Of a stretch of 64,000 nucleotides of DNA, positions 2,093 through 22,304 are shown piece by piece; positions within the stretch are counted from its first letter, which is position 1; the number at the start of each line of letters is the position of its first letter. Made by a program: the position numbers and the translations under genes. The stretch lies in assembly GCA_003210315.1 (NCBI GenBank), contig QCVQ01000003.1, positions 1-64,000 on the forward strand. The letters run 5' to 3'. A model generated the notes under the pieces. The model worked only from the letters and a program-made list of their open reading frames with translations, was not told the origin of the DNA and searched no databases. The stretch is from Synechococcus sp. AG-686-F08. GTDB taxonomy: Bacteria; Cyanobacteriota; Cyanobacteriia; PCC-6307; Cyanobiaceae.

Positions 2093-2145
2093 AATGGAGC
2101 CAAGCGGATTCGAACCGCTGACCCCCTGCATGCCATGCAGGTGCT
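2093..2145. repeat. Orphan attachment site: tRNA-Ala 3' fragment
   Basis: aatggagccaagcggattcgaaccgctgaccccctgcatgccatgcaggtgct, identical to 22230-22282; the sequence then diverges (taataact vs ctaccagc). Confidence 0.95.
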
Positions 2146-2198
2146 TAATAACTCAAATCAACTGATATAACAAGTCTAAAGGAGAATAAACATTTATT

Positions 2199-2217
2199 TA
2201 GAGCAGTTTTTAGAGCA
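2199..2217 (+). repeat. Two phased TAGAGCA(G) repeats, candidate integrase arm-type sites (left end)
   Basis: TAGAGCAG at 2199-2206 and TAGAGCA at 2211-2217, 12-bp spacing; matches the repeats at 22106-22136. Confidence 0.55.
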
Positions 2218-2832
2218 AAGATGATGGGAAGCGGATGTCCACAGCCCTTCCTCCCTTATCTCATGTGAGCTGACTCTGCCCAGCGCGTGGTTAATTTTCT
2301 GCCATCTCTGTTGTCGATCTAGATGGCTTCACGCTTGTGCTGAGGACTATGTGGTGTGCCTCATGCTCGGCATGGGTGAGCTTCGACGAGAAGTAGCTGC
2401 TGCGGGGAACCTGGGTGAATGTGTTTGCTTGGGCGATATGGCGAGTTTGGAAGAAGAACGGCTGAAGGAACAGGGCTAATTCAAAAGGGCAATGTCACTC
2501 ATCCTTTCGAGTGAATGGATGTCACCCCAAGAGGCAATCTCGCCAAACTTCTCTGATGTGGCAGCAGCAGCCTGATTACGCCCGACACAAGGAGAAGTCA
2601 GGCGGTGAAGGCTGGCTGCTGAACAGGCAAGAGGGAACGCTCATACAGATCAAGCCCGACGCACCAACCCAACATGCCCAGTTCGTATTGGTGAGCTACT
2701 ACCGATTATCAGCACGCATTGGGAAACCTGTTCGGCAGCACCGAATGCTCAGGCATCTTGGCATCGAAATGTGGATCAACTTGCAGAAGATCGGTTGGCA
2801 ACGATGCACGCCGCCTAACTGATTACCCCTTT

Positions 2833-2876
2833 GAGGGATAGGTCGGCAGCGAAGATCACTCGAATGGGGGATTCGG
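2833..2876 (+). repeat. Leader repeat copy A
   Basis: gagggataggtcggcagcgaagatcactcgaatgggggattcgg; matches copies C, D and E. Confidence 0.7.
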
Positions 2877-2935
2877 TATTTATGTATTTGGTAGATAGTA
2901 AATACATACAACCAAGCCTTCTCCTCTTCATCAAA

Positions 2936-3052
2936 ATGAATCAAAAACTAATTCTTTTTGGCTCGGTAATAGTTGTGGCTTTTGGAGCATTTATAGGTGT
3001 TGCCATCGATCTGCAAATGCAATCATTAATCACTATTTTTAGTGAATCATAA
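2936..3052 (+). CDS. 38-aa small membrane protein
   Basis: ATG after leader repeat A; hydrophobic MNQKLILFGSVIVVAFGAFIGVAIDL. Confidence 0.45.
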   Translation: MNQKLILFGSVIVVAFGAFIGVAIDLQMQSLITIFSES

Positions 3053-3096
3053 GACCACAAAGCATTTAAAAAACTACTAGTGCAACCATCACCAAA

Positions 3097-3357
3097 ATGA
3101 CAAAAAACGAATTAAAAGAAATCGTTCGCGATTGCATGCTAACAGAGAACATTAACTCCAACAAAATAGGCTTCACGTTAATCGAAATCACAAAACTTGT
3201 ATACAGCTCTCTCGTCAAACATGGAATAACGCCTGATGATGATATTTTCTATTCATACCAATATGATTTGCGTTGGTGCCTGCAAGAACTTCGTAATGAA
3301 GGTTTTACGAGCTTTAAAAAAATGGGAAAGTTCAATGTTCACTGTCTCTGCGAATAG
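3097..3357 (+). CDS. Hypothetical protein
   Basis: 86 aa ORF, AT-rich, coding-like composition. Confidence 0.55.
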   Translation: MTKNELKEIVRDCMLTENINSNKIGFTLIEITKLVYSSLVKHGITPDDDIFYSYQYDLRWCLQELRNEGFTSFKKMGKFNVHCLCE

Positions 3358-3410
3358 ATAATCATCTCCATACAACAACAACCATCACACTATTAAGGAA
3401 ACAATTACCA

Positions 3411-4289
3411 ATGTCATTACCCATCACTGACATCGTTACACCTAATGGCGTTAAACATCGAATGATAGACAAGGAGGACTGGTACATTGAAGTCCTCAAT
3501 GATACTGGTAAGGGCTGGGTAGAAACACAAAAACTACCTCGACTATTGTCAATATTTTCAACTGATGATAGTAATCCAATCTTTATGGATGAGTATCAAG
3601 TATTGAAATGCTATGACCTTAGTCAATTCTCCAATGACGCAATTCGTGTCTACGAGAATGGCAAGACTAAAGCCCCTATCAACTACAACGACTACCAGGA
3701 CAAAGACATCTTTCATTGTCACTTACTTCCTATAGGTACTTATTACATAGGTGACCCTGGTTATGTAATGCCTGAACAGGATTACGCAACATTCTTAGAA
3801 ACTTACTTTGCTTCTAAGGAGAGTAGTGGATTCTTTAAGTTTGAGGATAAGAAGATTCTAATCATCGATAACATGGGTGATGGATTCATTCCTATATACG
3901 ACGATTCTTACCCCGATAAGAAATGGAGTTCTCTTCCAATTGACCACGGTATGTTTGCATTTATCCCCTTCGATTACCTCACTCAAGAATGTGGATTAAC
4001 CAAGGAGTTTCTACTTGAGAAAGGTTGTGTCATGACTTTCAATTATGAAGGGATTGACTGGGGTGACGATGATGATAAACCCAGTGATAAAGAATTAGAA
4101 ACATATGAAGTTTATCTATGGGATTACACAATGTGCGAAGTAGACGGTTACACATTCTTTATGGATAGTGATGCGGAGGACGCTTATAATGCAATCGGCA
4201 AAGAAACCATCGGAATCAAATTCGTACACGCTATGAACACCACCGATTGCAACACAATCTTAGTTGAAACCGTTAAAGATGAAGAATGA
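3411..4289 (+). CDS. Hypothetical acidic protein
   Basis: 292 aa ORF with ATG start, acidic, contains LPIGTYYIGDPGYVMPEQDY. Confidence 0.75.
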   Translation: MSLPITDIVTPNGVKHRMIDKEDWYIEVLNDTGKGWVETQKLPRLLSIFSTDDSNPIFMDEYQVLKCYDLSQFSNDAIRVYENGKTKAPINYNDYQDKDIFHCHLLPIGTYYIGDPGYVMPEQDYATFLETYFASKESSGFFKFEDKKILIIDNMGDGFIPIYDDSYPDKKWSSLPIDHGMFAFIPFDYLTQECGLTKEFLLEKGCVMTFNYEGIDWGDDDDKPSDKELETYEVYLWDYTMCEVDGYTFFMDSDAEDAYNAIGKETIGIKFVHAMNTTDCNTILVETVKDEE

Positions 4290-4318
4290 ATCCATAGGAA
4301 GAATGACACACACGCATC

Positions 4319-4588
4319 ATGTGGGATTACAGTGCAACTCAACACTATTCAGATCTATCCCCCATTCCATTCAAGGAAGAATGGGAACATGAGGAAGCGG
4401 AAGCGAATGGAGAAAGCATATATAGAGATATGAAATATATCAACCTTCTAATGTTACCCAATGATGATAGGGACGAGTTAGAGATTGATCAAGAAATCGA
4501 ACCACGTGATACTGAATTAATATACATAGTGTGTGTAATATTATATATATTAATTCAGGCAAAGTTAAGTATTTTTACTAGAATTTAG
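4319..4588 (+). CDS. Hypothetical protein
   Basis: 89 aa ORF collinear with the preceding gene. Confidence 0.4.
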   Translation: MWDYSATQHYSDLSPIPFKEEWEHEEAEANGESIYRDMKYINLLMLPNDDRDELEIDQEIEPRDTELIYIVCVILYILIQAKLSIFTRI

Positions 4589-4719
4589 GCGAAGAGGAGA
4601 GAAACCATTCTCCTGGCACATCCACTAATAACTATCCAAATGAAGTACTCAATCATCCTCCAGCAATCAACGGGAGAGAATCAAACTGTTTACACATCAG
4701 AATAACTAGCTGCAGGTCC

Positions 4720-4890
4720 TGCTGATGGCACTAAGGGCTAATGACGCTGATGGCTATAAGTCTTGACTAGCCCTTGGCATTGAAGAGTTTGGAAGGGATG
4801 TAGCTGCTGATGTCGAATCTGAATGGATGGTGCCTTTGTTGATTGAAGATGAGAAAGACAGGTTGATGGCGAGGCAGCTGGGTGTGAGCC
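4720..4890 (+). pseudogene. Degenerate copy of the small ORF intact at 10375-10593
   Basis: Near-identical wording (atggcactaagggctaatgacgctgatggct...gatggtgcctttgttgattgaagatgagaaagacagg) with in-frame stops. Confidence 0.65.
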
Positions 4891-4902
4891 TTTGGCCCGA
4901 AT

Positions 4903-4945
4903 GGGGGATAGAACACCCACGAGAATCACTCTCATGGGGAATAAC
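4903..4945 (+). repeat. Leader repeat copy B (divergent)
   Basis: gggggatagaacacccacgagaatcactctcatggggaataac. Confidence 0.45.
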
Positions 4946-5008
4946 AGTTCCTAGTTACGAACATAAACTAACGACATCAAGAAACACACACACGACGGAG
5001 AACAACTA

Positions 5009-5554
5009 ATGAACAACAACAAACACAAGTTCTACGACTACGAACTAACAACAGAAGGACGCATTAAATGGTTCTCATACATACTTGATGACTTTGAAGA
5101 GTACATCAAAGAGTATTGGAACAAGACTCAATCAGAAGATTGGGATAATGTACCAGTACTTCCTGAATCATTCAGGGTTGAGTATGTTGAGAAACAGTTT
5201 GATTCTGACTTTGATACTGAAGACGCAAAGCGGTTAGAAGCATTCAATAATGGTGAAGATGAAGGTAATAATGAAGGATGGTTACCGATTTCATGTGTGA
5301 ACTGGATTTTAGTTAAGAACACACCTGAGAATTTAGAGAAACTCAAGGACGCAAAAGTTCTTTCATATGAAGTATGGGAAGACTTCCCTGAATTCGGAGA
5401 TGATTCTTGTATTCATGTAGAGACACTTGCTATTTGGTATTGGCGCTATTACAACGATAAACTTTATAGTGAAGAGACTAAAGAAAACTTTAGTGGCGAC
5501 ACTGATATTCCATTAGAAGAGATTCAAAAGGAGAATATACACGTAAACGAATAA
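5009..5554 (+). CDS. Hypothetical acidic protein
   Basis: 181 aa ORF with ATG start. Confidence 0.7.
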   Translation: MNNNKHKFYDYELTTEGRIKWFSYILDDFEEYIKEYWNKTQSEDWDNVPVLPESFRVEYVEKQFDSDFDTEDAKRLEAFNNGEDEGNNEGWLPISCVNWILVKNTPENLEKLKDAKVLSYEVWEDFPEFGDDSCIHVETLAIWYWRYYNDKLYSEETKENFSGDTDIPLEEIQKENIHVNE

Positions 5555-5689
5555 CTTTTGCATAACACTTACGAAGAAACGCTAATGTTCAACTGCTGGT
5601 CATTATCACCAGAACTACAGAAGATAATTGGTATGCAAAATTCACACGAGCACTGCCATGAGCGGGGTTTTTTAATGACTCACTCTTTT

Positions 5690-5733
5690 GGGGGATAGCT
5701 CAGCAGCAAAGACCGCTCGGATGGGGGATTCGG
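5690..5733 (+). repeat. Leader repeat copy C; homology with copy E extends to about 5832
   Basis: gggggatagctcagcagcaaagaccgctcggatgggggattcgg; long match 5685-5832 vs 10596-10745. Confidence 0.8.
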
Positions 5734-5797
5734 ATTCTTTGTGTTTCAGCGATTGTGAATACATCGAGGGGCGACCTTCATACAACACCTGAATCAA

Positions 5798-6157
5798 ATG
5801 AAACTTTCCTCCTTTGTCGCGATCGCTGCTGTTATTGGTGGTTCATTTCTGATTCCCATACCGGCTGAAGCAGATCAAGTGACAGATACCAAAGAGAAAT
5901 TAATTGGCCTTGCAGCATTTGCAGGATGCAAAATGACACGCCATGGGTACACAGTAGAACAGGCACGATCTATCATTGATGATGGAATAGTTAGCATGAA
6001 TGCTGAAGACTATAGAGTTTGGATGGATAGCAGCAAAGTTGCTAATGCAGTCCAGCTATTTGCTAAAGCGATGAATGACCAATGCACAACAGTTAACACT
6101 TCTAGTCCTTATCTTGAAAAGGCAATAAATGCTAGCCATAAAGCCACCACCTATTGA
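5798..6157 (+). CDS. Small secreted protein
   Basis: Signal peptide MKLSSFVAIAAVIGGSFLIPIPAEA; 119 aa. Confidence 0.7.
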   Translation: MKLSSFVAIAAVIGGSFLIPIPAEADQVTDTKEKLIGLAAFAGCKMTRHGYTVEQARSIIDDGIVSMNAEDYRVWMDSSKVANAVQLFAKAMNDQCTTVNTSSPYLEKAINASHKATTY

Positions 6158-6192
6158 TTGGGACAATAAACAACTTCTTTGCACTAAATTTA

Positions 6193-6543
6193 ATGACTGG
6201 AAAAGTGATCCCATTCTTGGCAATTCTTTTAGCATCTGCACTATCAAATCCTTACGCTGCTCATGCCAATGAGTGGGTTGAATTCAAAGAAAGTGATAAT
6301 ATGTACAAATACTTGCGCCTTGATTCTCAGTCGAATGGGATTTCTTATGTGTCAACCATGTTTTTTTTCAATTCCAAAAAGTTGTCCGAATCGGACTGGG
6401 TTGTGAACTGCAAGGAAAATGTAATGGTTAATAATTACGGCACAGAATGGATTAAAATTAGTGGTATTTGGAGGCTTCGAGATAATAACAAGGCTGGTAC
6501 TCCTGGTCTTGATCGACTATATGATTTCGCATGTTTAAATTAA
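6193..6543 (+). CDS. Small secreted protein, adhesin-E-like character
   Basis: Internal ATG start gives a signal peptide (MTGKVIPFLAILLASALSNPYAAHA); W-rich domain. Confidence 0.65.
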   Translation: MTGKVIPFLAILLASALSNPYAAHANEWVEFKESDNMYKYLRLDSQSNGISYVSTMFFFNSKKLSESDWVVNCKENVMVNNYGTEWIKISGIWRLRDNNKAGTPGLDRLYDFACLN

Positions 6544-6682
6544 AGAAAATAACTAGCTGAAACGTCGGGAAGCCTGAAGCCTTATGGCTGAAAGCAATAC
6601 AACACCCGCAAGGGAAAAGCAGGGGGCGTTTTGTATCGCTATCGATCTCCCAACAAATGTATTTCGTTTACTCCATAGTTAA

Positions 6683-7018
6683 ATGATTGAACAAAGTATT
6701 TTCATCAGTGAAGATGGTCGAAAATTTGACACCTCAGAGGAATGCCAAGAGTGGGAATCCTTGCTCGTTGTTATAAGAAAAGTCAGGCAGCGGTTATGGG
6801 AGCATGAATTCAAGACATCAGCCTTGGGACCAATATGGTGCAAAGAAAATATGGGAGAAAGGTGTACAGACGAATACCAGCTTCGTTCTTCCACTGACGA
6901 CGAACTTCTACACTTTGATGAAGATATATTCGAAGGAAGGCTAGAAGATGTCTGCATTGATGCAGTTCAGTTATACATGTACAGGTTAAGACAAGAATAT
7001 TCAATAGTGTTTGATTAG
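6683..7018 (+). CDS. Hypothetical protein
   Basis: 111 aa ORF, coding-like composition. Confidence 0.6.
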   Translation: MIEQSIFISEDGRKFDTSEECQEWESLLVVIRKVRQRLWEHEFKTSALGPIWCKENMGERCTDEYQLRSSTDDELLHFDEDIFEGRLEDVCIDAVQLYMYRLRQEYSIVFD

Positions 7019-7092
7019 CCTATAAATACTCAATGCAGGTTTTGAACGATCTCCAATCTGAATATCCACTACACCCGCCACGAGCTGAGTTT

Positions 7093-7845
7093 TTAAATGT
7101 CCGCTTCAATCAAGCCATGCGTCAAAGCAAAAACTGCTGCTTGTGTTCGATCTCTTACTCCAAGCTTGTGAATAGCTGTGCTGACATGACTTTTGACGGT
7201 TTCAGCAGAAACGAAAAGTGAATCAGCGATTTCAGTGTTCCTCATCCCTCGGATAATGCAGCGAATCACTTCTAGCTCTCGCTCAGATAATGGATCAACA
7301 AGTATTGGTGCAGGCTTCACCTTTGCTGTTGCAGCCTCTCGCACAGCCCTTGGGTAGTAGATGCCGCCGCTATTGGTCGTGCTTAAAGCGTGAATGAAGT
7401 CACCGTCACCAGTTCCTATGGATGACATGAACATCACACCATCAGCGCCTGCTTGCATTGCTTCCTGGACAACTTCAGGTGTCTCACGCTGGAGAAAGAT
7501 CAATGCCTTTAGATCAGGAGAATGATCCTTGGCTTTCTCTACCAGTCTTATTCCGTATCCCCGTTCAAGATCTTCACTGGTAATCAAAAGATCTGGATTG
7601 CTTTCAAGTTGTATTTGCAGTGCCTCATCTTCGGTTGTTGCACCACCAACTAACGATTGCAGGATTGGTGCAGCAAGGCTGAGTGCAGTAAGCGTGAGCC
7701 TATTTTTAGAGCAAACCAAGACTCTTTTTTTCTCCAGCATCGTTTTACAAGCATCAGAGGCTTGTTGGATTGCAGAGTCAGATGGGTTGATCCGCACGTA
7801 TTCGGTACAGGCAGCCACATCAGCATAGATGTGCCATGAATCCAC
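7093..7845 (-). CDS. NarL/LuxR-family regulator with receiver-like N-terminus
   Basis: C-terminal HTH LSERELEVIRCIIRGMRNTEIADSLFVSAETVKSHVSTAIHKLGVRDRTQA. Confidence 0.88.
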   Translation of the reverse strand: MDSWHIYADVAACTEYVRINPSDSAIQQASDACKTMLEKKRVLVCSKNRLTLTALSLAAPILQSLVGGATTEDEALQIQLESNPDLLITSEDLERGYGIRLVEKAKDHSPDLKALIFLQRETPEVVQEAMQAGADGVMFMSSIGTGDGDFIHALSTTNSGGIYYPRAVREAATAKVKPAPILVDPLSERELEVIRCIIRGMRNTEIADSLFVSAETVKSHVSTAIHKLGVRDRTQAAVFALTHGLIEADI

Positions 7846-7867
7846 GCCAGAAGCTAAACAGGGCTGC

Positions 7868-8029
7868 TCACATAAAGCTTTCTACGTTTTGATCGGTGAA
7901 GACAATTCCTTTTAGGTCTGACCTCTCTAGTTTCCTTTTGACTATTGCATCGTTTATATTAATAGCCAGTATCTGCTTGATTTTTATTTCGCCGTCCCGC
8001 CGAAGAATCAGATCGTAATTAGGTGTCAT
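7868..8029 (-). CDS. 53-aa small ORF upstream of the LuxR gene
   Basis: MTPNYDLILRRDGEIKIKQILAININDAIVKRKLERSDLKGIVFTDQNVESFM, same strand as the downstream regulator; below the ORF-track cutoff. Confidence 0.45.
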   Translation of the reverse strand: MTPNYDLILRRDGEIKIKQILAININDAIVKRKLERSDLKGIVFTDQNVESFM

Positions 8030-8076
8030 TATCAATATAACTTTGAATCATTTATCACTATTTGTCTAACTGAGGT

Positions 8077-8096
8077 GATCCCCCAAATGGGGGATC
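8077..8096. promoter_or_regulatory. Perfect inverted repeat GATCCCCC-AAAT-GGGGGATC
   Basis: 8-bp arms, 4-nt spacer, ~65 bp upstream of the protease start. Confidence 0.5.
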
Positions 8097-8162
8097 AAAA
8101 TCCTTGGAAAACTACCCAGGGGAGCGTTGTAGGGACTAAGAGACTTGGGATATAGTTAAAAG

Positions 8163-9272
8163 ATGGAAAACAAATTCATCAAGCCATTATCAATACTTGT
8201 TTTATTAGGTATGACTGGCTTAGCAGGCTGCTCTAGTGTCTCAACAAACACGACACAGTCTGCAAATGAAGCAGATGTGGGAATACCTTTACAAAAACTC
8301 CCAAAAGAGCATCCAGCAGAATGTACTATTCAAGAGTATTCAGCAGAAGAGTTGTTTGCAAACTCGAAGGATGGCATCGCCGTCGTTTTAACTGATTCTG
8401 GAGTTGGCAGTGCTTTTGTTGTCAAGCACGAGGGTAATTCAACTCTACTTGCAACTAATGCGCATGTGGTTGATGGAACGAAGCTTGTGACGTTGAAGTG
8501 GGCAAATGGTTCACAGGATCAGGCTGCAGTGGTGAAAATTGGAGATACTCAGAGTCGTGACAATGATTTAGCTTTACTTCAAGTAAATGGAAACAAAGGA
8601 ACACCCCTAAAGATAAAGCCGAGTAAAATAAATACTGGTGCTGATATTGTTGCTCTTGGAGCACCACATGGCCTGGACTTTACTATTACAAGGGGAATTG
8701 TTAGTGCACATCGAGAAGGAGGGCGTGTAATTCAGATTGATGCTCCTATTAACCCGGGGAATTCAGGTGGGGCAATTCTAGATAAGACAGGTTGTGTTGT
8801 TGGAGTGTCAACTTATATCCGTAAAGACAGCGAAGGACTTGGATTTGGAATTGCATCAAATCAGCTTCAGGCTTTTCTTGTTAGTGAGACCAAACCCACT
8901 CAGGAACCTAATAAGAAAGCTCAAGATATCGCTTATCACGCGCCTTCCTCTGCTCCCAGCTATCCGCAAACATGTTGGACTTCAGCACATCCCGATGCTC
9001 CTAAAGGAAAGCTAATTTCTTTGCCCTGCAAGGTATCGAATCCCAAGTCTGGCCTTATAGTTGTCAATTGGAGTGATGGTTACAACACCAAATTCCACAA
9101 CAATCGAGCTACTCGCGATGAGATTGAAGACGTAGATAGTGGAACTATTAAATACGGGGAAATTGGTGACAAATTAATTGAAAGTCGTGGGAACTATTAC
9201 CTCATTGTCAACGCTGACGATGGTGCCGAATCCTGGATTGCTAGTGATACGTTGAAAGACTGGCAGGAATGA
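8163..9272 (+). CDS. Trypsin-like (S1C/DegP-type) serine protease lipoprotein
   Basis: Lipobox LAGCSS; triad motifs TNAHVV, DNDLALL, GNSGGAI; extra C-terminal domain. Confidence 0.88.
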   Translation: MENKFIKPLSILVLLGMTGLAGCSSVSTNTTQSANEADVGIPLQKLPKEHPAECTIQEYSAEELFANSKDGIAVVLTDSGVGSAFVVKHEGNSTLLATNAHVVDGTKLVTLKWANGSQDQAAVVKIGDTQSRDNDLALLQVNGNKGTPLKIKPSKINTGADIVALGAPHGLDFTITRGIVSAHREGGRVIQIDAPINPGNSGGAILDKTGCVVGVSTYIRKDSEGLGFGIASNQLQAFLVSETKPTQEPNKKAQDIAYHAPSSAPSYPQTCWTSAHPDAPKGKLISLPCKVSNPKSGLIVVNWSDGYNTKFHNNRATRDEIEDVDSGTIKYGEIGDKLIESRGNYYLIVNADDGAESWIASDTLKDWQE

Positions 9273-9366
9273 GAATTTAAGCCTTAACTGCATTCTCAGG
9301 ATTTGTTCAAATCATTGCCACTTAGTTTGCAGTGTTTCCTTAATATATGAACCTCAAAAAACTACT

Positions 9367-9537
9367 TATGGCACTAAGGGCTAATAACGCTGATAGCTAC
9401 AAGTCGTAGCTGGCATTAGGAATTGAATAGCTTGGATGGGATGTGGCTGGTGAGGTTGAGTCTGAGTGGATGGTGCCTTTGTTTGTTGAAGAGAAGAGAG
9501 ACAGGGTGATTGCTTGGCAACTGGGTGTGAGCCTCTA
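9367..9537 (+). pseudogene. Second degenerate copy of the small ORF at 10375-10593
   Basis: atggcactaagggctaataacgctgatagctacaagtcgtag... with several in-frame stops. Confidence 0.65.
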
Positions 9538-9545
9538 GTTCTTTT

Positions 9546-9587
9546 GGGGGATAGTTCAGCAGCGAAGACCACTCGGATGGGGGATTC
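9546..9587 (+). repeat. Leader repeat copy D
   Basis: gggggatagttcagcagcgaagaccactcggatgggggattc. Confidence 0.75.
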
Positions 9588-9633
9588 ATGCTCTCTGCAC
9601 TTGAGCAAAAATAAATCCTATGAGGAATGAATC

Positions 9634-9807
9634 ATGAGTTCTTTTAAATGCCCCCGCTGCTCGTTCGATCCAGGTGCCCACGCCTGGTCAGCAATTACCT
9701 TGGCTGCCCATAAATGGAAAGAGCATCAAATTCCATCAAGGGGAGGACACAATGGAACTATGCGTTACTTCCCGAGTCAGGATGAATATGAAGCCGCACA
9801 CAAATGA
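9634..9807 (+). CDS. 57-aa zinc-finger-like small protein
   Basis: MSSFKCPRCSFDPGAHAWSAITLAAHKWKEHQIPS..., CxxC and HxxxxH pattern; TGA overlaps the ATG of the next ORF; below the ORF-track cutoff. Confidence 0.6.
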   Translation: MSSFKCPRCSFDPGAHAWSAITLAAHKWKEHQIPSRGGHNGTMRYFPSQDEYEAAHK

Positions 9808-10160
9808 AAAGCCTTCCGGTTGTTTCAACTCTTTCTTTGTTAGCTGTCCTCTCAAGCATTGTTGCTCGCCCTTCTCTAGCTAATGAATACACTCACTCTT
9901 GTTCATTCAATGGAGGCACCTGGACTCCAGTGCGCATTATCAATAATGGGCCAGCATTTACATATACATGGGCCGATGGTCCACAAATGACATACGTCTT
10001 TCGAGGCTCAATGGCGGACCGATGGAACATCACTGACAAGTTGGGCGGAAGATGGCAACTATTTGACTACAGAAATAGTCGCGACACTGTACTCACAAAT
10101 CTGGACAACGGAAATAAGATTAGATGCAGCAATCAAAATCAGTTTGGTCGACCCAAATAG
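9804..10160 (+). CDS. Small secreted protein
   Basis: Signal peptide MKSLPVVSTLSLLAVLSSIVARPSLA; two Cys in the mature part. Confidence 0.7.
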   Translation: MKSLPVVSTLSLLAVLSSIVARPSLANEYTHSCSFNGGTWTPVRIINNGPAFTYTWADGPQMTYVFRGSMADRWNITDKLGGRWQLFDYRNSRDTVLTNLDNGNKIRCSNQNQFGRPK

Positions 10161-10374
10161 CCCTTTGTTGGCTTGAAGCTAGAAATACATATTGAGATCT
10201 CTATTTGACTAATTGCAGCCTCCAGGGAGTGGAAATCAATCGCCAACTTGTAGCCATGCATGGACTAACTGAATAATTGATAGTTTGCTGCTTAAAAATC
10301 TAAGCTTTGACTGCGAGCTGGAATGGTCTGAAAAGTAATCACCGGGGAATGCTTTAAGCAGTAGTCCTCAGCCA

Positions 10375-10593
10375 ATGACCCTCGACACACAGATGACGCT
10401 GGCTCTGCTGCAGGAACTATTGATGGCACTAAGGGCTAAAGACGCTGATGGCTACAAGTCTTGGCTCACCCTTGGCATTGAAGAGCTTGGAAGAGATGTA
10501 GCAGCAGAGGTCGAGTCTGAGTGGATGGTGCCCCTGTTGGTTGAAAAGGAGAGAGACAGGCTTATGGCCTGGTCGCTGGGAGTCAGCCTCTAG
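10375..10593 (+). CDS. Small hypothetical protein (intact member of a 3-copy family)
   Basis: 72 aa MTLDTQMTLALLQELLMALRAKDADGYKSWLTLGIEELGRDVAAEVESEWMVPLLVEKERDRLMAWSLGVSL; degenerate copies at 4720 and 9367. Confidence 0.65.
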   Translation: MTLDTQMTLALLQELLMALRAKDADGYKSWLTLGIEELGRDVAAEVESEWMVPLLVEKERDRLMAWSLGVSL

Positions 10594-10601
10594 TCCTTTT
10601 A

Positions 10602-10644
10602 GGGGATAGGTCAGCAGCAAAGACCCCTCTGCTGGGGGATTCGG
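10602..10644 (+). repeat. Leader repeat copy E; homology with C extends to ~10745
   Basis: ggggataggtcagcagcaaagacccctctgctgggggattcgg. Confidence 0.8.
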
Positions 10645-10709
10645 AATCGTTCTGTTTCAGCGATGGTGAATAAATCGAGGGGGTGACCCCTAGACAACAC
10701 CTGAATCAA

Positions 10710-10760: not shown

Positions 10761-10784
10761 TAAATGCTCAGGAAGAAATTAATT

Positions 10785-11807: not shown

Positions 11808-14034
11808 CTACTTATAGGTTATCTGTCCGAAATCTGTTTCGTATTCTGAGCAAAATGATTCGTACTTCACACATCTTCTATTCATGGCTTTCTCGATCAG
11901 ATTGTATGCATTTTTAATTACTGAAAAGTGAGTTGGTGGCTGCTGCTTATCTGGCTGAACTAAAAGTAGTATCCAAAAGAAGTAGCCTCTTTCTTTAGCC
12001 ACATAAATTTCATTGTCCGTAATTCTAAACTCCTCTCCTATTGATTTTAATAGTTTGACTTCTATATAGATTTCTTGTCCTCCCATAGTGGTTTTATCTA
12101 TGCCGATAAGGTCGCAGCCAATGTTTCTCTTAGAAACATCTCTTGCCTCGATTTCAAGTGACTCTAAAATATCAATCGCCAATATTTCGGCTTTTCGCCA
12201 ATCTGGTTGGATCATTGCAGCACTACTGCTACTAATTGCATCCTGAATGCTTGATAGTTTCGAATTTACGACAATAGGTTCAAGCTTTTCCGCTTTGTGA
12301 AGTCTATTTTCAGCATCACGTGGCTCATCTTCTTGTTGGATAAATTGAAGCAAGGATTTATACCTCTGATCACCTTTTTTTATCATTTGATTTTGGTATC
12401 TGTTTATCAGACTGATTGGGAATTTTTTGGGATTTACACCGAGAAGTAAATACCAATCTATTGCACTTAGCCCTCCACAGCGTACGGCAATTGACTCAAA
12501 AGAAAAAATATCAATCTCTAAAGAAGGATCGCCATTTATCTCTCTGGCAGATCTAATGCCTTTATCTATGCAAGAGATTAGATTGGCATCTTCAAGCTCT
12601 GATGTTTCTAATGCTTGAAAAGCATTTAAATATCTAATATCACCATGTATATACCCAATCAGATTCATTGTGGACTGCAAAGAAAGCTGATTGTCTTGGA
12701 GCCATCCAAGAATATATAGGGGTCTCAAAATCGAAATCTCTGAAGCTCCTATCGATTTGAAAAAGAAATAGCCATCCTTGTGAGACAACTGGCCGAAGCA
12801 AAGAGGATTTTCACCATTAGTGCGGCAATATTTTTTATAGTCTTGCTCTGTCATCCAGGCTGGACAGATTAAGAACGAAGAAAAGTCAAATCCTTCTTCT
12901 TTAGATGATTTTTTAATTGTGCTGGCAATGATTGAAGGGGATATATCTAGTACGTCTGCTTTGTTGTAGGGGATGATAATCTCTAGAAGCTGATAATCTT
13001 CTAGGCTAAGTAATTGATTGCTGTGGAGTTGCAATAGTTTATTGAGAAGCTCAATTAAATCCTCCATTATGCTCTTTGTCTGATCGTCGGTTGCGATACG
13101 AGTTCTGGATGGATCTGTGCTGAAATCTCCATTAATTATCGCTCCTAGCCCAGTGACTGTAAGCATTGGAAGAAAAGCCTGTGCATATGCTTGATTTTTA
13201 GTAAGCCTTATGGGCATTTCATTTTCTAAATTCGAAGATATTGAAATCTTTTTGTATTGCCATACTCTTGAAATCTTCTGCTCATTAAATTCTTTTTCTC
13301 CTAGTTGGCTATTGAAGTTAATGTCAAAATCTTGATATGGAATATTCGCTTCTGATTGATAGGATTGTCTTTGATGTCTATTGAGTTTGGTATGAAATGC
13401 TTCTGAAATCTGTATAGTAATATCAGTAATTGACCTCAAAAATAATATTGCATTTGATTTAAGACCTTTCATATCTTCCAGAAGCTGCTCTTCTTTCACG
13501 TTTGCAAGAACAAAGCATGTGTTGCATCTATGTATCTCAGTAAGTTTATTAGCTCTTGTTGAGATTATGTCATTTATGCTTCCCCAATGTGGAACGCGAA
13601 GAAGGGGAACATCTGAATTGCTATTGAATAATTCTTTGGTCTTGGACTTTGAGAAATAGACCTCAAGATCTCCGCTATAGATCGCAATCTCTTCTGCTAC
13701 TCCCGATGTGGACTTGAAGCCAATACCTCTGTAGCCAATGTTTTCCCCCCTTTGCTTTGTAGAGAATGCGCTTCGGCAGATTGCTTCAAGGTCATCACAT
13801 GTAAAGACGTGCCCGTCATTCAAGAAGTAAAGGTCATTGCCTATCTTCTCAGCAACAAATATATTCGACTGGCAATCATCTGCATTTTGGATTAACTCAA
13901 AATACTCTTGAGATATAGGTTTCCGATATATATTTTTCTAAGCCTGCAATCTCCTCAATGATCTTTGTATTTGTCCTCGCCTCGTCTTGAATTTCGTTTA
14001 CTTTTGCTTGTAGTTTTAGCTTTAGATCGCTCAT
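11808..14034 (-). pseudogene. Sacsin/GHKL-type ATPase with C-terminal DUF3883-like domain, frameshifted near the N-terminus
   Basis: ORF 11808-13823 lacks the N-box; upstream frame encodes MSDLKLKLQAKVNEIQDEARTNTKIIEEIAGLE, then after a 1-nt shift at T5 13933-13937 NIYRKPISQEYFELIQNADDCQSNIFVAEKIGNDLYFLNDGHVF...; C-term IYIEVKLLKS...NEIYVAKERGYFFWILL. Confidence 0.7.
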
Positions 14035-14313: not shown

Positions 14314-14754
14314 ATGGCTATTTCCTATGACCCGCCTGCATGGGTCAAGAGCGATCCAGATTCCTATAAGCGTTGGCTCAATCGCAAAGCCAACTCATTG
14401 ATGAAGCGCGACCGAAAGCGAGGAGGGACTTATCGGGTGAAGGAAGCCATGGATGCCATCCATGAAGCGATGCACCGGTCAGACGGAATTGATCCTTATG
14501 ACGGGCAAGCATTGGATTCAGAGTTGCTTGGCGTCTACGACAACACTCTGAGTAAAGAGAGAGGGGCTTCCTACAGAAGAGAGTTCTATCGACTTCCAAC
14601 GGTTGACCATCGAAACGCTGAGCCGGTGTGTGACTTTCAGATCGTCAGCTGGCAAACCAATGATGCAAAGGGCGACATGAGCCCTGAGGAATACCTTGCT
14701 CACTGCATTGCTGTGGTGAATCACCTGACTCATGGCTGCAGCTTGGACTCTTGA
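14314..14754 (+). CDS. HNH-endonuclease-like protein
   Basis: DPYDGQALDSELL...LPTVDHRNAEPVCDFQIVSWQTNDAKGDMSPEEYLAHC resembles an HNH fold. Confidence 0.65.
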   Translation: MAISYDPPAWVKSDPDSYKRWLNRKANSLMKRDRKRGGTYRVKEAMDAIHEAMHRSDGIDPYDGQALDSELLGVYDNTLSKERGASYRREFYRLPTVDHRNAEPVCDFQIVSWQTNDAKGDMSPEEYLAHCIAVVNHLTHGCSLDS

Positions 14755-15508: not shown

Positions 15509-16858
15509 ATGGGTAAATCTTCAACTACTGCAATCTTCAAGGAAAAGCTATTAAAAAAGCATTCTCATATAGTCCTTCTTGGAGAATACGTAGCAGCAAA
15601 AGAAAAAGTAAAGTGCCGATGCGATTCTTGTGGGAATATATGGGATACTTCTACGCCAGATAATTTACTTCGGGCGACAAAGTATGGGTGCCCTGAATGT
15701 GCTAAGAGGGCTCGCAATCAGGATTGGCAATCTGAAATTAGAGTCTGGCTTAATACATTTCGAAAGGATATTGTTCTTGATGGCGAGTTGGATAATGCAA
15801 GGTCAAAAACCTGGTTCAAATGCACAAATGAAGAATGCAGTCACCGATGGAAAACTACTTTTCGATCTATTCGAGGGGCGGATTCTGGCTGCCCTGAGTG
15901 TGCAATAAAAAGAAATGCCCAAGCCCTTACTCTTCCGGAAGGTGAATTTCGGGAATGGCTTTCTGCGAATCGACCTTATAGCGAACTTGTGAAATATTCA
16001 AGCTCTAGCGAAGAAGCAACTTTCAAGTGCTTAAATCCGAATCATGAAAGTGACAATCTAATATATTCCCAAGTGCCTGAGGTGATGAGACTGCAAGGGC
16101 GTGGACTGCACGGATGCCAGCAATGTGGATGGACTGAGAATGGTAAGCAATTTGTTGCAGATGAAAAAGAAAAACGTAACTGGATGGAGAAAAATAAGCC
16201 GACAATAATTATGGGAGATAACTATGTTGACACGAAAACTCGCTGCACATTTACATGCACTATTTGTGACTACTCTTGGGATACACAAATTGCGGTATTC
16301 ACCAATAATGATGCTGGTTGCCCAAGTTGCGCTGGCGTTGCTCGCGTCACCGAAGAGGAGTTCAAAGAGAGGCTTCTAGAGGTATCTAAAGGCAGTGTTC
16401 AGATTGATAGTGATTATCATGGATATGGACATAAAACCTGGTTTAAGTGCTTAAAAACTAGTTGTGGTCATCGTTGGGAAATTCAACCGGTGAGGCTTAC
16501 TAGTGCTAGCCCAACAGGTTGCCCTGCCTGCACGCCAAGCGGATTTAATCCCGACAAACCAGCTTGGTTTTATTTGATGCACAAATCACATGAGCAGCAA
16601 ATCGGTATCAGTAATAATCCTATCCAAAGATTGTCGACACATTATCGAGATGGATGGTCACTAATTGAGGTTCGTGGTCCTGGCTATGGAGGGAATGTTC
16701 TTCACTTTGAAAGATGTATCAAGAAGTGGTTGAGAGAAGAAATTGGACTGGTTGAGGGTAAGCTTGAAAATTGGTCAACTATTGATTTGCAAGTCAGTAG
16801 CATAGCTGAATTAGCAAAAAGATCTGATACTGAAAATCTATTAACTTTACTAGAATGA
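15509..16858 (+). CDS. Five-zinc-ribbon protein with possible C-terminal GIY-YIG-like domain
   Basis: Repeated F(K/T)C..C..W...GCP.C units; C-term AWFYLMHKSHEQQIGISNNPIQRLSTH...FERCIKKWL. Confidence 0.75.
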   Translation: MGKSSTTAIFKEKLLKKHSHIVLLGEYVAAKEKVKCRCDSCGNIWDTSTPDNLLRATKYGCPECAKRARNQDWQSEIRVWLNTFRKDIVLDGELDNARSKTWFKCTNEECSHRWKTTFRSIRGADSGCPECAIKRNAQALTLPEGEFREWLSANRPYSELVKYSSSSEEATFKCLNPNHESDNLIYSQVPEVMRLQGRGLHGCQQCGWTENGKQFVADEKEKRNWMEKNKPTIIMGDNYVDTKTRCTFTCTICDYSWDTQIAVFTNNDAGCPSCAGVARVTEEEFKERLLEVSKGSVQIDSDYHGYGHKTWFKCLKTSCGHRWEIQPVRLTSASPTGCPACTPSGFNPDKPAWFYLMHKSHEQQIGISNNPIQRLSTHYRDGWSLIEVRGPGYGGNVLHFERCIKKWLREEIGLVEGKLENWSTIDLQVSSIAELAKRSDTENLLTLLE

Positions 16859-16941
16859 TTCGTTCGGTTAATTGGCTTGATCTTTTCTGATTGCAGATGG
16901 CAGTCGAGGGCTCATAGTCAGATCCATAAAACTTGATTCTT

Positions 16942-17307
16942 ATGGCACGCACCACTTACAAAGAACGTCAGAAACGTCGTCATAGAGCTGCTGAACTGCT
17001 CGCTGAAGGTTTATGTCCTGCTGATGCTGCGTCACGCCTGACAGCGGAGTGGGGGTGCAGTCGTCGAACAAGCCTTAGGGACATAGATATTGGTCAGGAT
17101 GCGTTGTTAGAGAGCATCGACTCTCAAACGCATGCGCAATTAGCTGCATGGTGTGTGGCGTCTTATGCACGACTGATGAACAAGGCTGAGAAGGCACACC
17201 AATACGGTGCAGCGATTGGTGCATTGAACGGGTTGGTGAGATTGGTTGTGGAGCCGCAGATGCAGATCGCTAATAAGCGGACTTTCAATGGCAGCTCTAG
17301 GTACTGA
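16942..17307 (+). CDS. HTH protein related to the ORF at 11304, possible terminase-small-subunit-like
   Basis: MARTTYKERQKRRHRAAELLAEGLCPADAASRLTAEWGCSRRTSLRDIDIG... Confidence 0.6.
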   Translation: MARTTYKERQKRRHRAAELLAEGLCPADAASRLTAEWGCSRRTSLRDIDIGQDALLESIDSQTHAQLAAWCVASYARLMNKAEKAHQYGAAIGALNGLVRLVVEPQMQIANKRTFNGSSRY

Positions 17308-18175: not shown

Positions 18176-18190
18176 TCAGCGCCACCGGAA

Positions 18191-18373
18191 CTAAACGTCG
18201 ATCACATTTGGTTCGGTGCCTTCCTCAAGAGCAGCGAGATGCTCCCTGATCTGAGCCATCTGCTTTAACTGACGACCCCTGATGGATTCGAACACTGGAC
18301 CGTTTGCGCGAGCAGCTAGCTGGTTGTCAGGCTGTTTTGCTTCTTGGCGGCTAATGCGGATCGTCTTCACCAC
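18191..18373 (-). CDS. Small hypothetical protein
   Basis: 60 aa, overlaps the end of the RepA-like gene on the same strand. Confidence 0.45.
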   Translation of the reverse strand: MVKTIRISRQEAKQPDNQLAARANGPVFESIRGRQLKQMAQIREHLAALEEGTEPNVIDV

Positions 18374-19418
18374 TTAGTACCGAAACAACAGGTTTAAGGG
18401 GTGTGTGCGTGGCACAGGAAAAATCACCAACGCCGTAGACGAAGGCAGGTCTACCCCGCCTTGGCGGGCCATTTGACGGCTTGTGATGGCGCTGCAGTTT
18501 GCCCTGGGTGAACAGGTCAACACAGCAAACGCGGATGTATTCCTCATCTGCTGCAAGAGCCTTGGTGAGGTCAGCAATCGAGCAGTAGCCGTGATGTGTG
18601 ACATGGCTCAGGATCCGATCTGAAAGCCGTTGCCGAACACCTGGCAGCTGCTGTTCCTGGTCCTCAATCAACCACCAATCAAAAGATTCAGGCTCACGAT
18701 CCAGCAGCCATTTAGTGCCCTCTTTGATGTTCCGTTTACCCAAGGCATGCAGGCTGAAGTACTGACCTGCCGGAGCCAAGCCCCAGCAGTCTTGAACTGC
18801 GGCGCTGATGGTTCCAAGCCCAGCGATGTCATCCCACTGCACTGTCTGACGACGCTGCCGAACACCATTGCCGTCCTTTGGAGCCTTGATGAGGTGTGCA
18901 GTCATCAGGATCAAGACGCCAGCATCAACCGCGGCCTTGTTCAACTCGTAGAGCAGGTCCACAAGTTCAGAATCAACCGTCCGTCTGTTCTCACTGCACA
19001 AAACAGTGGTCAAAGAGTCGATGCAGATTGCGTCGTACTGCTTTGACTCGATGGCCTTTAAGAGCAGTTCAACTGGGAATGGCTCTTTTGGATAGATGAC
19101 ATCCCAGTTTTGCTTGAGTTCTTGCTGCCTGTAGACAGCCTGAGCATGCTCTTTAGGCTCGTCGCCTTGGATCAAGAGGCACCTGCCCTTGGTGACTTTG
19201 AAAGCACCAAGGAAATCAACACCTTCTTCGATCGCCTCAAGGAACCGATTTACCAGCGTGGTCTTGCCGGTGCCACGTTCAGCAGCCAGAAGAACAATGC
19301 CACTGACAGCAATCAGGAAGACCCGCCAGATTTTTCCTAGTTCTTGCACACACCCCTGAGCACGCTTTTCGATCAGGTCATCAAGGGGGTTGAAGTCGTA
19401 TTCGCTCATGACAGCCAC
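18351..19418 (-). CDS. RepA/RecA-like ATPase (AAA_25 type)
   Basis: Walker A AERGTGKTTLV; Walker B YDAICIDSLTTVL. Confidence 0.82.
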   Translation of the reverse strand: MAVMSEYDFNPLDDLIEKRAQGCVQELGKIWRVFLIAVSGIVLLAAERGTGKTTLVNRFLEAIEEGVDFLGAFKVTKGRCLLIQGDEPKEHAQAVYRQQELKQNWDVIYPKEPFPVELLLKAIESKQYDAICIDSLTTVLCSENRRTVDSELVDLLYELNKAAVDAGVLILMTAHLIKAPKDGNGVRQRRQTVQWDDIAGLGTISAAVQDCWGLAPAGQYFSLHALGKRNIKEGTKWLLDREPESFDWWLIEDQEQQLPGVRQRLSDRILSHVTHHGYCSIADLTKALAADEEYIRVCCVDLFTQGKLQRHHKPSNGPPRRGRPAFVYGVGDFSCATHTPLKPVVSVLSGEDDPH

Positions 19419-20116
19419 CCGTTGAGTTCAGGGCAGCCGAGATCGTTTTTGCGGAAGCAATCAACGTCACGGCGTTGATACCGCAAGGTCTTCAGCTTGT
19501 GCTGCACGGCAATGACAAACCGCCGGTATTTGGCGTTGTGCCTGGCGGCATCAAACAACAGCGGCAGCAGCTGATCACCGTTGTATTCCGCCCGATAGAT
19601 GGCCTTGAAGTAGTGGCGCAGCTCATCAGGACTGCACAGTTCAAACTCAGGGCATGCCATTGCCTCGCGCCATTCAGCAATGAACTGAGGAAGCAGCCTT
19701 CGCCACCTGGTGCTGACGTGACGTTTTGGTTTTGGCCTTTGTTTGCAGCGTTGATCTGCTGGCGGCCATGGCTTGAAAAGCTTGCAAGCACCGGTGTGAA
19801 CACAGTTGGTGCGATGCAAGAACCACGTTTGACCATGCCAAGGGAATTGATCCGCCAGCGGTGAGTTGTGGCAGAACACCGTGGCGTCATTGAAGGCGCA
19901 GTCTTGGTCTTTGGTTCGACCACAGGCGCAGGGGTTGCGCCGACTGGAACGAGTGAGCTTCTGCTCTAACTTCCGCCCTAAATGGTGATTTGTGGGTCTA
20001 GACCTATTTGTCGTGCCAACCGATTTAGATGCACTGACAACCTGCATAGGCAGCAGGGTTTCACTTAACCTTGAGGTAACACGGGCCTCATGGCTGCTCA
20101 ATTTTTGGGCAGTCAT
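19406..20116 (-). CDS. Cys/His-rich (putative zinc-binding) replication-module protein
   Basis: NPCACGRTKDQDCAFNDATVFCHNS...NCVHTGACKLF; overlaps the RepA-like gene start. Confidence 0.6.
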   Translation of the reverse strand: MTAQKLSSHEARVTSRLSETLLPMQVVSASKSVGTTNRSRPTNHHLGRKLEQKLTRSSRRNPCACGRTKDQDCAFNDATVFCHNSPLADQFPWHGQTWFLHRTNCVHTGACKLFKPWPPADQRCKQRPKPKRHVSTRWRRLLPQFIAEWREAMACPEFELCSPDELRHYFKAIYRAEYNGDQLLPLLFDAARHNAKYRRFVIAVQHKLKTLRYQRRDVDCFRKNDLGCPELNGWLS

Positions 20117-20119
20117 TTT

Positions 20120-20395
20120 TTATACCCCCGCCAACTTCCGAAGTTGCTGCGCGGTGGTCGCCGTATTCATCTGACGAAGCTGGCCACGCTTGTGCAGCAG
20201 CTCCTGAATACGATCAACGCGCCAACGAATTGAGGCGTTACTTGAATCACCGAGGAAATAATGTTCACCGGCGACTAGGAAGCCACCATGGGTGTCTCGT
20301 TTTCGCTTCAGGTAGCTTTCGCTGACTTGAAGAAACTCTGCTGCATCTGGGGTCCGTAACAACAAGGGAAACGCTCCTGACGTATCCCCATGCAC
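20120..20395 (-). CDS. AlpA/Xis-like HTH protein
   Basis: LLRTPDAAEFLQVSESYLKRKRDTHGG...IRWRVDRIQELL; start may be internal. Confidence 0.7.
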   Translation of the reverse strand: MHGDTSGAFPLLLRTPDAAEFLQVSESYLKRKRDTHGGFLVAGEHYFLGDSSNASIRWRVDRIQELLHKRGQLRQMNTATTAQQLRKLAGV

Positions 20396-20598
20396 TGAGC
20401 AATGACCTGCACATAGCGAGGGAACTGGGTGAAGTCCCAGAGCATGTTGGGGTGCTTGTTAGCGACTAGGCATTGCAAGTTGGCCTCAACTTCAGGCACG
20501 CTAAGTTCTCCACACGGAACTCTGATCACAACACTGTGACCATTGACGGTGGCTTGCTTTCCCCGAGCTTTTTGCGAACGCGTTACCTTACGAGTCAT
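20308..20598 (-). CDS. Hypothetical protein of the xis operon
   Basis: 96 aa ORF overlapping the xis-like ORF by 88 nt. Confidence 0.5.
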   Translation of the reverse strand: MTRKVTRSQKARGKQATVNGHSVVIRVPCGELSVPEVEANLQCLVANKHPNMLWDFTQFPRYVQVIAQCMGIRQERFPCCYGPQMQQSFFKSAKAT

Positions 20599-20784
20599 TG
20601 ATGCATGAGGGTGTTTATTACCTCATCCCGCTAGACGCTAAATGCGAATCGGCCATGCTCGGGGAGAGCAGTTATGACGGGGGCCTGGTATCACCCAGCC
20701 GTTGTCCGTCAGATGTGATGCTGTGATCATATTGATTCAATCTGCGGTTGTCAACTACAGCCAGCCACAGCAGAGTGATGCACT

Positions 20785-20798
20785 GTTGGTATACCAAC
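20785..20798. promoter_or_regulatory. Candidate operator: 14-bp palindrome GTTGGTATACCAAC
   Basis: Perfect palindrome in the int-xis intergenic region, followed by GGCATACC half-site-like sequence. Confidence 0.4.
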
Positions 20799-20820
20799 GG
20801 CATACCATTTACCTCATTTT

Positions 20821-22089
20821 TCAGTTACCGACAGCTACTAATCCTTCGTTATATCGATCAACTGCCGCTTCCAGACTGGCTTCATCAACCCACGAGCCGT
20901 AGTTCTTCAGATGCACCGCAGTTGTGTGACCCATAAGTGCAGCTGCTTGCCTAACATGCAAACCATTATTTGAGCAAACGTGACAGCGCCAGGCCCAAGA
21001 ATGTCGAAGGCTATAAGGCGTGATGTCTGGATTACTCAGAACCAAATGCTTCCAAGGCTCATAACGATTCAGCAGCTGCCCAAACGAATGACCGACCTGT
21101 TGGAACGTGCCCTTAACTTCCACCTTTTCAATCTCATTTGCGATGGCAGTTGGCAACTTCACCAAGCCGCTGGAATAGAGCTTGAGCAAGCGTTTGCCTT
21201 CACCCTCACGGCCAGCAATGTCCAACGGCAAGCAACGCCGTGGTGACTTTGCTTTCTGAGCCAACGTCGCTGCATTTCTTTTGACGTGACCGGCATAAAG
21301 CTTGTCCCCTTTCACGCTCAATACAGCCAACTCAGCTGGCCTCAAACCAAACAATGCAATTAAGCCAGTCGCCAGACGCAAGTCATGGCGACCATCAGCC
21401 TCCATTTGATCCAATAGCCCAGCTAGCTGTTCTGGTTTGACCGGAGGCGTTAGCCGCTCCTCTGTAGAGGTTGCGGCTACGCCGATCAATTCATTGATGA
21501 ACGCCTTTTCTGGCGGCAACCAACGCTGTGGCGCTCCAGCTTTGATGACGGCGTAAGTCAAAAAAGCGCAGACATCACCCAAGTTTCGTTTCCGGCCCTG
21601 ACCACCTGATGCCATTTGGGTGAAGTGCAACTCAGCGAAACGCTTCAGTAGCGCCCTTGAGTCGCGTGGTTTTGGTCTTGATTCAAGGCAGACCAAAGCG
21701 CGGTCCAATCGCGTTTTCAGGTCAGCCAAAGTTGAACTTCGACGACCCTGTTTGGCTAGCAAATATTCCTCAACGACAGCTGGCCAACCTTGATCTGCGA
21801 TGCCTTTGTTGTCTTCAGGAACGGCAAGTGCCTCAGTATCTAGACGGACCGCTTCAGCAAGGCTGATGTTCCTGCTTTCAACCAACTCACGGCACCGTGT
21901 GACGGCGTTGAGGATCACCACGCTGTTGGTGGCCTTCCATTCAATCGACAGCACCTTGGCCGACTTAGTGCCGTCTTCGTAGACGCGGGTCAGCTTGGCT
22001 TTGCCGGACTGTGCGATGACGTTCCAGCCGCGGCCATGGTTGTCCTTGATCTGTCGCCTGAGCGTTTGTTCCCACTTCTGTGGAGGCAT
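20821..22089 (-). CDS. int: Tyrosine recombinase/integrase
   Basis: Catalytic motifs GLRPAEL, SLRHSW, GHTT...LKNYGSW; adjacent to the tRNA 3' end. Confidence 0.92.
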   Translation of the reverse strand: MPPQKWEQTLRRQIKDNHGRGWNVIAQSGKAKLTRVYEDGTKSAKVLSIEWKATNSVVILNAVTRCRELVESRNISLAEAVRLDTEALAVPEDNKGIADQGWPAVVEEYLLAKQGRRSSTLADLKTRLDRALVCLESRPKPRDSRALLKRFAELHFTQMASGGQGRKRNLGDVCAFLTYAVIKAGAPQRWLPPEKAFINELIGVAATSTEERLTPPVKPEQLAGLLDQMEADGRHDLRLATGLIALFGLRPAELAVLSVKGDKLYAGHVKRNAATLAQKAKSPRRCLPLDIAGREGEGKRLLKLYSSGLVKLPTAIANEIEKVEVKGTFQQVGHSFGQLLNRYEPWKHLVLSNPDITPYSLRHSWAWRCHVCSNNGLHVRQAAALMGHTTAVHLKNYGSWVDEASLEAAVDRYNEGLVAVGN

Positions 22090-22105
22090 GACTGCTTCCT
22101 GGGTC

Positions 22106-22136
22106 TAGAGCAGTTCTAGAGCAGAATTTAGAGCAG
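22106..22136 (+). repeat. Three phased TAGAGCAG repeats, candidate integrase arm-type sites (right end)
   Basis: TAGAGCAG at 22106-22113, 22117-22124, 22129-22136 (11 and 12 bp spacing). Confidence 0.6.
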
Positions 22137-22231
22137 AACAGCCCTAACAGGCCGTAGCAGGCTGTAGCCAGGCAACAAAAAAGCGGCCTTGCGACCGCTG
22201 AAAACCTTGTCTGCGACTGGGATTCAATCAA

Positions 22232-22304
22232 TGGAGCCAAGCGGATTCGAACCGCTGACCCCCTGCATGCCATGCAGGTGCTCTACCAGCTGAGCTATGG
22301 CCCC
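22232..22304 (-). tRNA. tRNA-Ala (anticodon GGC)
   Basis: GGGGCCATAGCTCAGCTGGTAGAGCACCTGCATGGCATGCAGGGGGTCAGCGGTTCGAATCCGCTTGGCTCCA; complete cloverleaf, loop ATGGCAT. Confidence 0.95.

Follow-up and report, generated by a model that had tools for sequence, protein, structure and literature searches.

A probable phage-satellite-like element with two small-terminase homologues at a tRNA-Ala(GGC) gene of a marine Synechococcus

The first 64 kb of contig 3 of Synechococcus sp. AG-686-F08 (QCVQ01000003.1; source genome of 1.58 Mb in 64 contigs, about 59% complete), termed here the window, contain a 20-kb island at a tRNA-Ala(GGC) gene, between positions 2093 and 22282, which is probably a phage-satellite-like integrative element of marine picocyanobacteria. 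The evidence read from the sequence comprises an att pair, arm repeats, gene homologies, the adjacency of small (TerS) and large (TerL) terminase genes in phages, an empty site and relatives in several tRNA genes. A first-pass annotation had left the choice between an integrative conjugative element, a satellite and a tycheposon. Its tRNA-targeted tyrosine-recombinase element, Xis-like gene and AAA/RepA-like ATPase stand, while nothing conjugative was found, and the reading shifts to satellite-like because of two TerS homologues and arm-type repeats, both missed earlier. As in satellites generally, the island combines integration and replication genes with, by homology and synteny, a TerS packaging-redirecting gene, and lacks virion genes: Pfam and PHROGs scans of the searched window proteins, some small open reading frames (ORFs) being left out, revealed no capsid, tail, portal, large terminase or conjugation gene.

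The ends of the element are defined by the following features.
22231-22305, minus strand: complete tRNA-Ala(GGC) (ARAGORN)
22230-22282, minus strand: attL core, the 3′ half of tRNA-Ala plus flanking nucleotides, 53/53 identical to 2093-2145
2093-2145, minus strand: attR core, orphan copy (100% identity over 53 bp), present with a conserved inner flank as the same orphan copy in genome G012
1877-2092, unstranded: outer flank, lying directly after tRNA-Ala at the empty site of genome G027 (joined-flank alignment)
2146-2524, unstranded: right terminus, conserved in G012 (84% over a 432-bp alignment that takes in the att)

The tRNA-Ala(GGC) gene is the sole tRNA within the window (ARAGORN), and the proposed 53-bp att pair proved exact, one copy completing the tRNA and the other being an orphan. 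A check for an empty tRNA-Ala locus, set beforehand, returned one relative, G027, with contiguous flanks: a query that fuses the lexA-tRNA side with the left flank aligns without interruption (query 1-976, att at 709-761, 86.9% identity overall), with about 72% identity over the part containing the flank, where about 215 bp of outer flank are shared. The G012 alignment spans the att and the adjoining 379 bp within the element. Both the G027 empty site and the right end shared with G012 agree with the boundaries first proposed. GC content is about 45% on either side of 2093 and does not change at attR, which is thus an element boundary but not the edge of the hypervariable zone. Beyond attR, the contig continues for 2092 bp, of which only about 215 bp are common to one relative. 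The tRNA-Ala/lexA region is kept in nearly every other genome searched of the genus, in which the same tRNA has different neighbours, and the locus is therefore a hotspot. Additional att copies occur at 4-36 kb in G012, G021, G025, G011, G016, G019, G008, G018 and others. Between the two 53-bp copies of the window, no att-like sequence with up to eight substitutions was found, and a "third att copy" at 20009-20061 (60%), proposed by the repeat finder, was rejected as chance. A 92-nt inverted repeat (86%) surrounds attR, at 1779-1870 and 2463-2554.

The mobility and replication module lies immediately inside attL.
20821-22089, minus strand: tyrosine recombinase, 422 aa (phrog_1, 4.8e-10; Pfam Phage_integrase, 8.8e-4, below its cut-off)
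20308-20598, minus strand: 96-aa ORF of family F11, overlapping the next gene and conserved in the two closest elements, L034b and L085
20120-20395, minus strand: AlpA/Xis-like small winged-helix protein, 91 aa, candidate excisionase (homologues in most related elements; weak PHROG excisionase matches)
19406-20116, minus strand: Cys-rich protein with a zinc-finger-like motif, 236 aa (81% identity in L085, 58% in L034b)
18351-19418, minus strand: AAA_25 (RepA/RecA-like) ATPase, 355 aa (Pfam PF13481, 4.5e-11; 56% in L085)

The recombinase beside the tRNA is full-length, starts 141 bp from the tRNA 3′ end and retains catalytic residues R250, K270, R362, H388 and Y397, which are invariant across 21 aligned recombinases. 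With an att repeat at both ends, an intact tRNA, a catalytic recombinase and an empty site, the island is a tRNA-targeted tyrosine-recombinase element. The recombinase is followed, as described in the first-pass annotation, by the AlpA/Xis-like, Cys-rich and AAA/RepA-like ATPase genes, all on the minus strand. The suggestion that the element is intact enough to excise gains from these invariant residues and from genes that are full length relative to the element of genome G139. The ATPase, 25% identical to a RecA-family ATPase of phage S-CBS4, is probably a replicative helicase, while the position of the Cys-rich protein points to a probable replication accessory; a kinship of the latter with a primase-like protein of locus L086 was unsupported by BLASTP. 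The replication position is occupied in different elements by an AAA_25 ATPase, a VapE-like helicase, a DUF3987 helicase or a primase-type protein, and it looks as if replication genes are exchanged as modules, as in other satellites, where VapE-like, DUF3987 or primase-type genes are usual.

The surroundings of about 25 recombinase relatives were fetched, and 22 elements with an att pair, including that of the window, were delimited (2.8-20 kb); all 22 form the base for the arm-repeat and integrase-polarity counts given below, and 21 elements that for the TerS census. They sit in tRNA-Ala(GGC), tRNA-Val(TAC) or tRNA-Arg(TCT), and a further tRNA-Val is a probable fourth target. Closest to the window element are an 8.07-kb element of L034 (L034b), part of a tandem array and holding most of the module, and a 7.06-kb element in the tRNA-Val of G139 (L085), which has its own att pair and displays identities of 72% (integrase), 73% (91-aa AlpA-like protein), 81% (Cys-rich protein), 56% (ATPase) and 44% (TerS-like protein). 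A recombinase 72% identical to that of the window thus uses a different tRNA. The integrase gene lies at the tRNA-like end in 10 elements and at the orphan end in 12 (in L097, whose T-loop is palindromic, it was placed by eye), so that the layout with the integrase beside the tRNA, previously taken as typical, is present in the window but is not diagnostic. Recombinase relatives occur in 97 of 201 family genomes (E ≤ 1e-10), the closest named one belonging to Synechococcus sp. AG-670-B23, and all matches of a phylum-wide draw (E ≤ 1e-20) fell within the family; no relative was found in 50,697 phage records or by a pattern scan of IMG/VR. In these searches the element family was seen only in marine picocyanobacteria. 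In the tandem array of L034 (1226-17930), tRNA-Ala is followed by element a, an att, element b and a further att, and the two integrases sit back to back on either side of the middle att, which both elements share. The att copies of L086 (505-589 and 8988-9071) differ in the T-stem (GCGG..CCGC versus GGAG..CTCC), and this element may possibly have imported the tRNA-Ala allele of another host.

Short direct repeats lie just inside both att cores of the window element.
22105-22136, minus strand: left arm repeats, three copies of TGCTCTA (minus-strand reading) at a spacing of 11-12 bp (repeat comparison)
2198-2217, minus strand: right arm repeats, two copies of TGCTCTA at a spacing of 12 bp (repeat comparison)

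The right-arm block GCTCTAAAAACTGCTCTAAA is common to the window and G139 elements. Element-specific direct repeats of 7-9 bp with a 12-bp period were identified at both ends of 18 of the 22 elements, in each of which two or more copies of a single 7-mer, 9-14 bp apart, are found within the left att at a distance of 88-141 bp and again within the right att at 38-107 bp. Dinucleotide shuffling predicts 0.0 elements with arm repeats at both ends, and in most of the other four the pattern, read by eye, is present with a mismatch. The arm word varies by element (TGCTCTA, TTTGGCGCA, TTCTGCGCA, AATCAGACT, TTGAGCACA and others), and similar recombinases tend toward the same word: TGCTCTA is common to the window element, L034b and L085, although L085 occupies tRNA-Val. 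Binding to arm-type sites is established for the lambda and Tn916 integrases, and the repeats described here are probable arm-type binding sites of a two-domain recombinase. Because three TGCTCTA copies stand at attL and two at attR, the two ends of the window element are matched and suit one recombinase.

Two genes on the strand opposite to the integrase encode putative small terminases.
16933-17307, plus strand: TerS homologue 1, 124 aa (phage-only TerS hidden Markov model, 3.8e-9; family alignment; AlphaFold model)
11304-11666, plus strand: TerS homologue 2, 120 aa (phage-only TerS hidden Markov model, 3e-7)

These are exactly the two matches that the phage-only TerS profile gave in 509 window ORFs. 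Both belong to a diverse family of 105-152-aa proteins present in 49 of 121 genomes and, within the census, in 13 of 21 elements, in every case on the strand opposite to the integrase. Profile-profile comparison gave an E-value of 4e-22, and one member matches a protein of siphophages P-HS2, MED4-184 and MED4-117 (36%, 3e-15). In MED4-117 the homologous gene and the annotated large terminase gene share a 4-bp overlap, and the portal comes next; among IMG/VR contigs, 80 of 80 have the homologue immediately before the large terminase. The phage small terminase, homologous to both window copies and to those of the 13 elements, forms its own branch, far from the two separate satellite branches in which the window copies fall; the latter are deep and not recent captures. 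AlphaFold predicts a confident all-helical fold for TerS 1 (pLDDT 87), for which Foldseek ranked the G20C small terminase first (weakly, E 0.9) and a BFVD search gave weak matches; the modelled structure is only compatible with a small terminase. Near TerS, five relatives (L034, L044, L046, L086 and L104) carry together two genes without counterpart in the window, F7 (112-122 aa) and F8 (132-203 aa), whose products are coiled-coil-like and without database match. They are candidate packaging or capsid-interference genes; no IMG/VR relatives of an F8 protein were found.

Taken as a satellite-like element, the island might work in four steps. The recombinase would recombine the tRNA gene with an attP core that matches the 3′ half of tRNA-Ala(GGC) exactly, probably gripping the core by its catalytic part and the TGCTCTA arm repeats by its N-terminal part; the tRNA would be kept whole and the orphan half-copy would mark the far end. 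Excision would be directed by the AlpA/Xis-like protein, and the Cys-rich protein and AAA_25 ATPase would initiate copying of the excised circle. Finally, one or both TerS homologues would guide element DNA to the large terminase that an infecting siphophage, the presumed helper, supplies, leading to packaging into its particles and transfer. Several observations weigh against this scheme. No virion DNA, excised circle or helper was seen, and the searches of phage records and IMG/VR returned no match to the recombinase, both TerS genes or the core DNA. The PDB fold matches of TerS 1 are weak, small terminases ranking first and fourth (E 0.9-1.6). The element may also be partly decayed or fused, to judge from its size of 20 kb, its second TerS, its AT-rich cargo and the truncated ATPase gene listed below.

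The remainder of the island holds the following features.
15509-16858, plus strand: zinc-finger/CapR-domain endonuclease-like protein, 449 aa (phrog_681, 1.5e-44; Pfam CapR)
14314-14754, plus strand: endonuclease-VII-like protein, 146 aa (phrog_1035, 6.6e-4; homologues in L088, 53%, and L054, 54%)
11808-13823, minus strand: sacsin-type ATPase with NOV_C domain, 671 aa, apparently 5′-truncated or frameshifted (domain and defence-model matches)
2525-11303, unstranded: AT-rich cargo of small secreted or unknown proteins, an HtrA-like protease, a LuxR-type regulator and dispersed repeats (ORF list, repeats, searches)

The sacsin-type gene resembles TmtA defence models from about profile position 80, its upstream frames being closed by stops, and is a candidate decayed defence gene. 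A 228-nt repeat family lies at 4717-4944, 9360-9587 and 10415-10642 (76-82% to a reference copy) and recurs many times across the tRNA-Ala region of G001, G007, G027 and others. The element exceeds its sister elements (7-8 kb) by 12 kb, and the stretch of roughly 12 kb from the first TerS gene to attR is extra, partly decayed material, probably with remains of a second element.

The history of this right half is the subject of the strongest competing explanation, to which we give an even chance and which overlaps with the satellite-like reading: only the ~5-kb module on the tRNA side is or was a compact satellite, the remainder being an older resident of the hotspot, with its own TerS relic and attR, fused to it when an internal att was lost. 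In that case the 20 kb may still excise as one piece without having evolved as a unit. Such a composite, partly dead island is favoured by two TerS genes from different subgroups, by the location of TerS 2, which lies 9 kb from attR in the window while its relatives in L100 (87%) and L049 (74%) adjoin attR, and by GC content, which steps at about 17 kb from 51-55% in the mobility module to 37-50% in the rest. It is also favoured by a match of 10602-11329 to G001, a genome without att duplication, at 91-94%, and by the occurrence of tandem arrays at the tRNA-Ala locus, in L034 and G021. The same type of arm repeat at attL and attR, both suiting one integrase, and the lack of an internal att remnant with up to eight substitutions argue the other way. 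Fusion with a decayed second element and simple growth of cargo are about equally likely, and the matched ends of the element are unaffected by this question.

It is unlikely that the "TerS" genes are ordinary helix-turn-helix regulators in a tycheposon-like cargo island with no link to phage packaging. Some family members weakly match the late transcriptional activator phrog_836 (0.0044) and general helix-turn-helix families, and the TerS 1 fold matches are weak, but small terminases themselves carry an N-terminal helix-turn-helix domain, the phage-only profile matches are independent, and the phage homologue strictly adjoins terL and portal. Less probable still is a prophage that lost its structural genes: although the genes for the integrase, the replication ATPase, TerS and the endonucleases are of phage type throughout, compact 7-8-kb relatives that have this gene set between intact att pairs turn up repeatedly, in several tRNA genes and genera, which marks the small state as inherited, and no portal, capsid, tail or large terminase was found among the searched window proteins; this explanation was rejected. 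An integrative conjugative or mobilizable element, in which tRNA integration and a Xis-like gene are common, was likewise rejected as highly improbable, since the Pfam and PHROGs scans revealed no relaxase, coupling protein or secretion gene in the searched window proteins or in the scanned representative proteins of relatives.

Several known systems resemble the element. The Prochlorococcus tycheposons, reported by Hackl in 2023, are said to combine a tyrosine recombinase with a tRNA target and a partial tRNA copy, some having been described as viral satellites. The window element shares with them a marine picocyanobacterial host, a tyrosine recombinase, a tRNA gene with a partial tRNA copy and, in the window, a recombinase beside the tRNA, but it targets tRNA-Ala(GGC), it has relatives in tRNA-Val and tRNA-Arg, and 12 of the 22 elements have the integrase at the orphan end. 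It is tycheposon-like by host and target, likened by description and not by recombinase clade. Like phage-inducible chromosomal islands (PICI/SaPI), it displays an integrase, an AlpA-like gene, a replication module and a small terminase without virion genes; it differs in its recombinase, in a TerS convergent with the integrase block and in the F7/F8 companions of its relatives. The divergent repressor/AlpA switch of PICI beside the integrase was not found, the integrase, AlpA-like, Cys-rich and ATPase genes being co-directional, and no repressor was identified among the searched window proteins. VEIMEs, compared by description only, and PICMIs are similarly marine, small and integrative with minimal gene sets, although PICMIs, found in Vibrionaceae, use fis as their integration site and have no terS, unlike the window element (PMC10803314). 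Picocyanobacterial islands at tRNA-Phe and tRNA-Cys, also compared by description, share a novel tyrosine integrase near a tRNA, variable content and occurrence in Prochlorococcus and Synechococcus; they use other tRNAs than the window element, often have a small serine recombinase nearby, and their integrases are stated to be distinct from those of tycheposons (PMC10187409).

More tentatively, the relatives may form a satellite family built on three exchangeable codes, namely the tRNA target, the element-specific arm word (12-bp period, both ends) and a small terminase of the P-HS2 lineage. P-HS2-type siphophages would then be the likely helpers, their lineage being the source of the small terminase, and close integrases would have retained the arm word while changing target between tRNA-Ala and tRNA-Val. 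At locus L038 of G012 (1416-9746), the right terminus (84% over 432 bp), with two TGCTCTA repeats and the same orphan att, occurs without an integrase, and the interval up to tRNA-Ala encodes HypB, a ureohydrolase, a Rieske protein and an ABC transporter, which may form a guanidine-type nitrogen cassette. The exact attL, attR and arm-site coordinates are now defined, and the features to follow are the arm-word code and a candidate helper lineage that can be named, siphophages with a P-HS2-type small terminase. If the satellite-like reading is true, island genes of the most abundant marine phototrophs would have a route to travel in virus particles, and right ends of this kind may carry nutrient genes too, as the G012 cargo illustrates.

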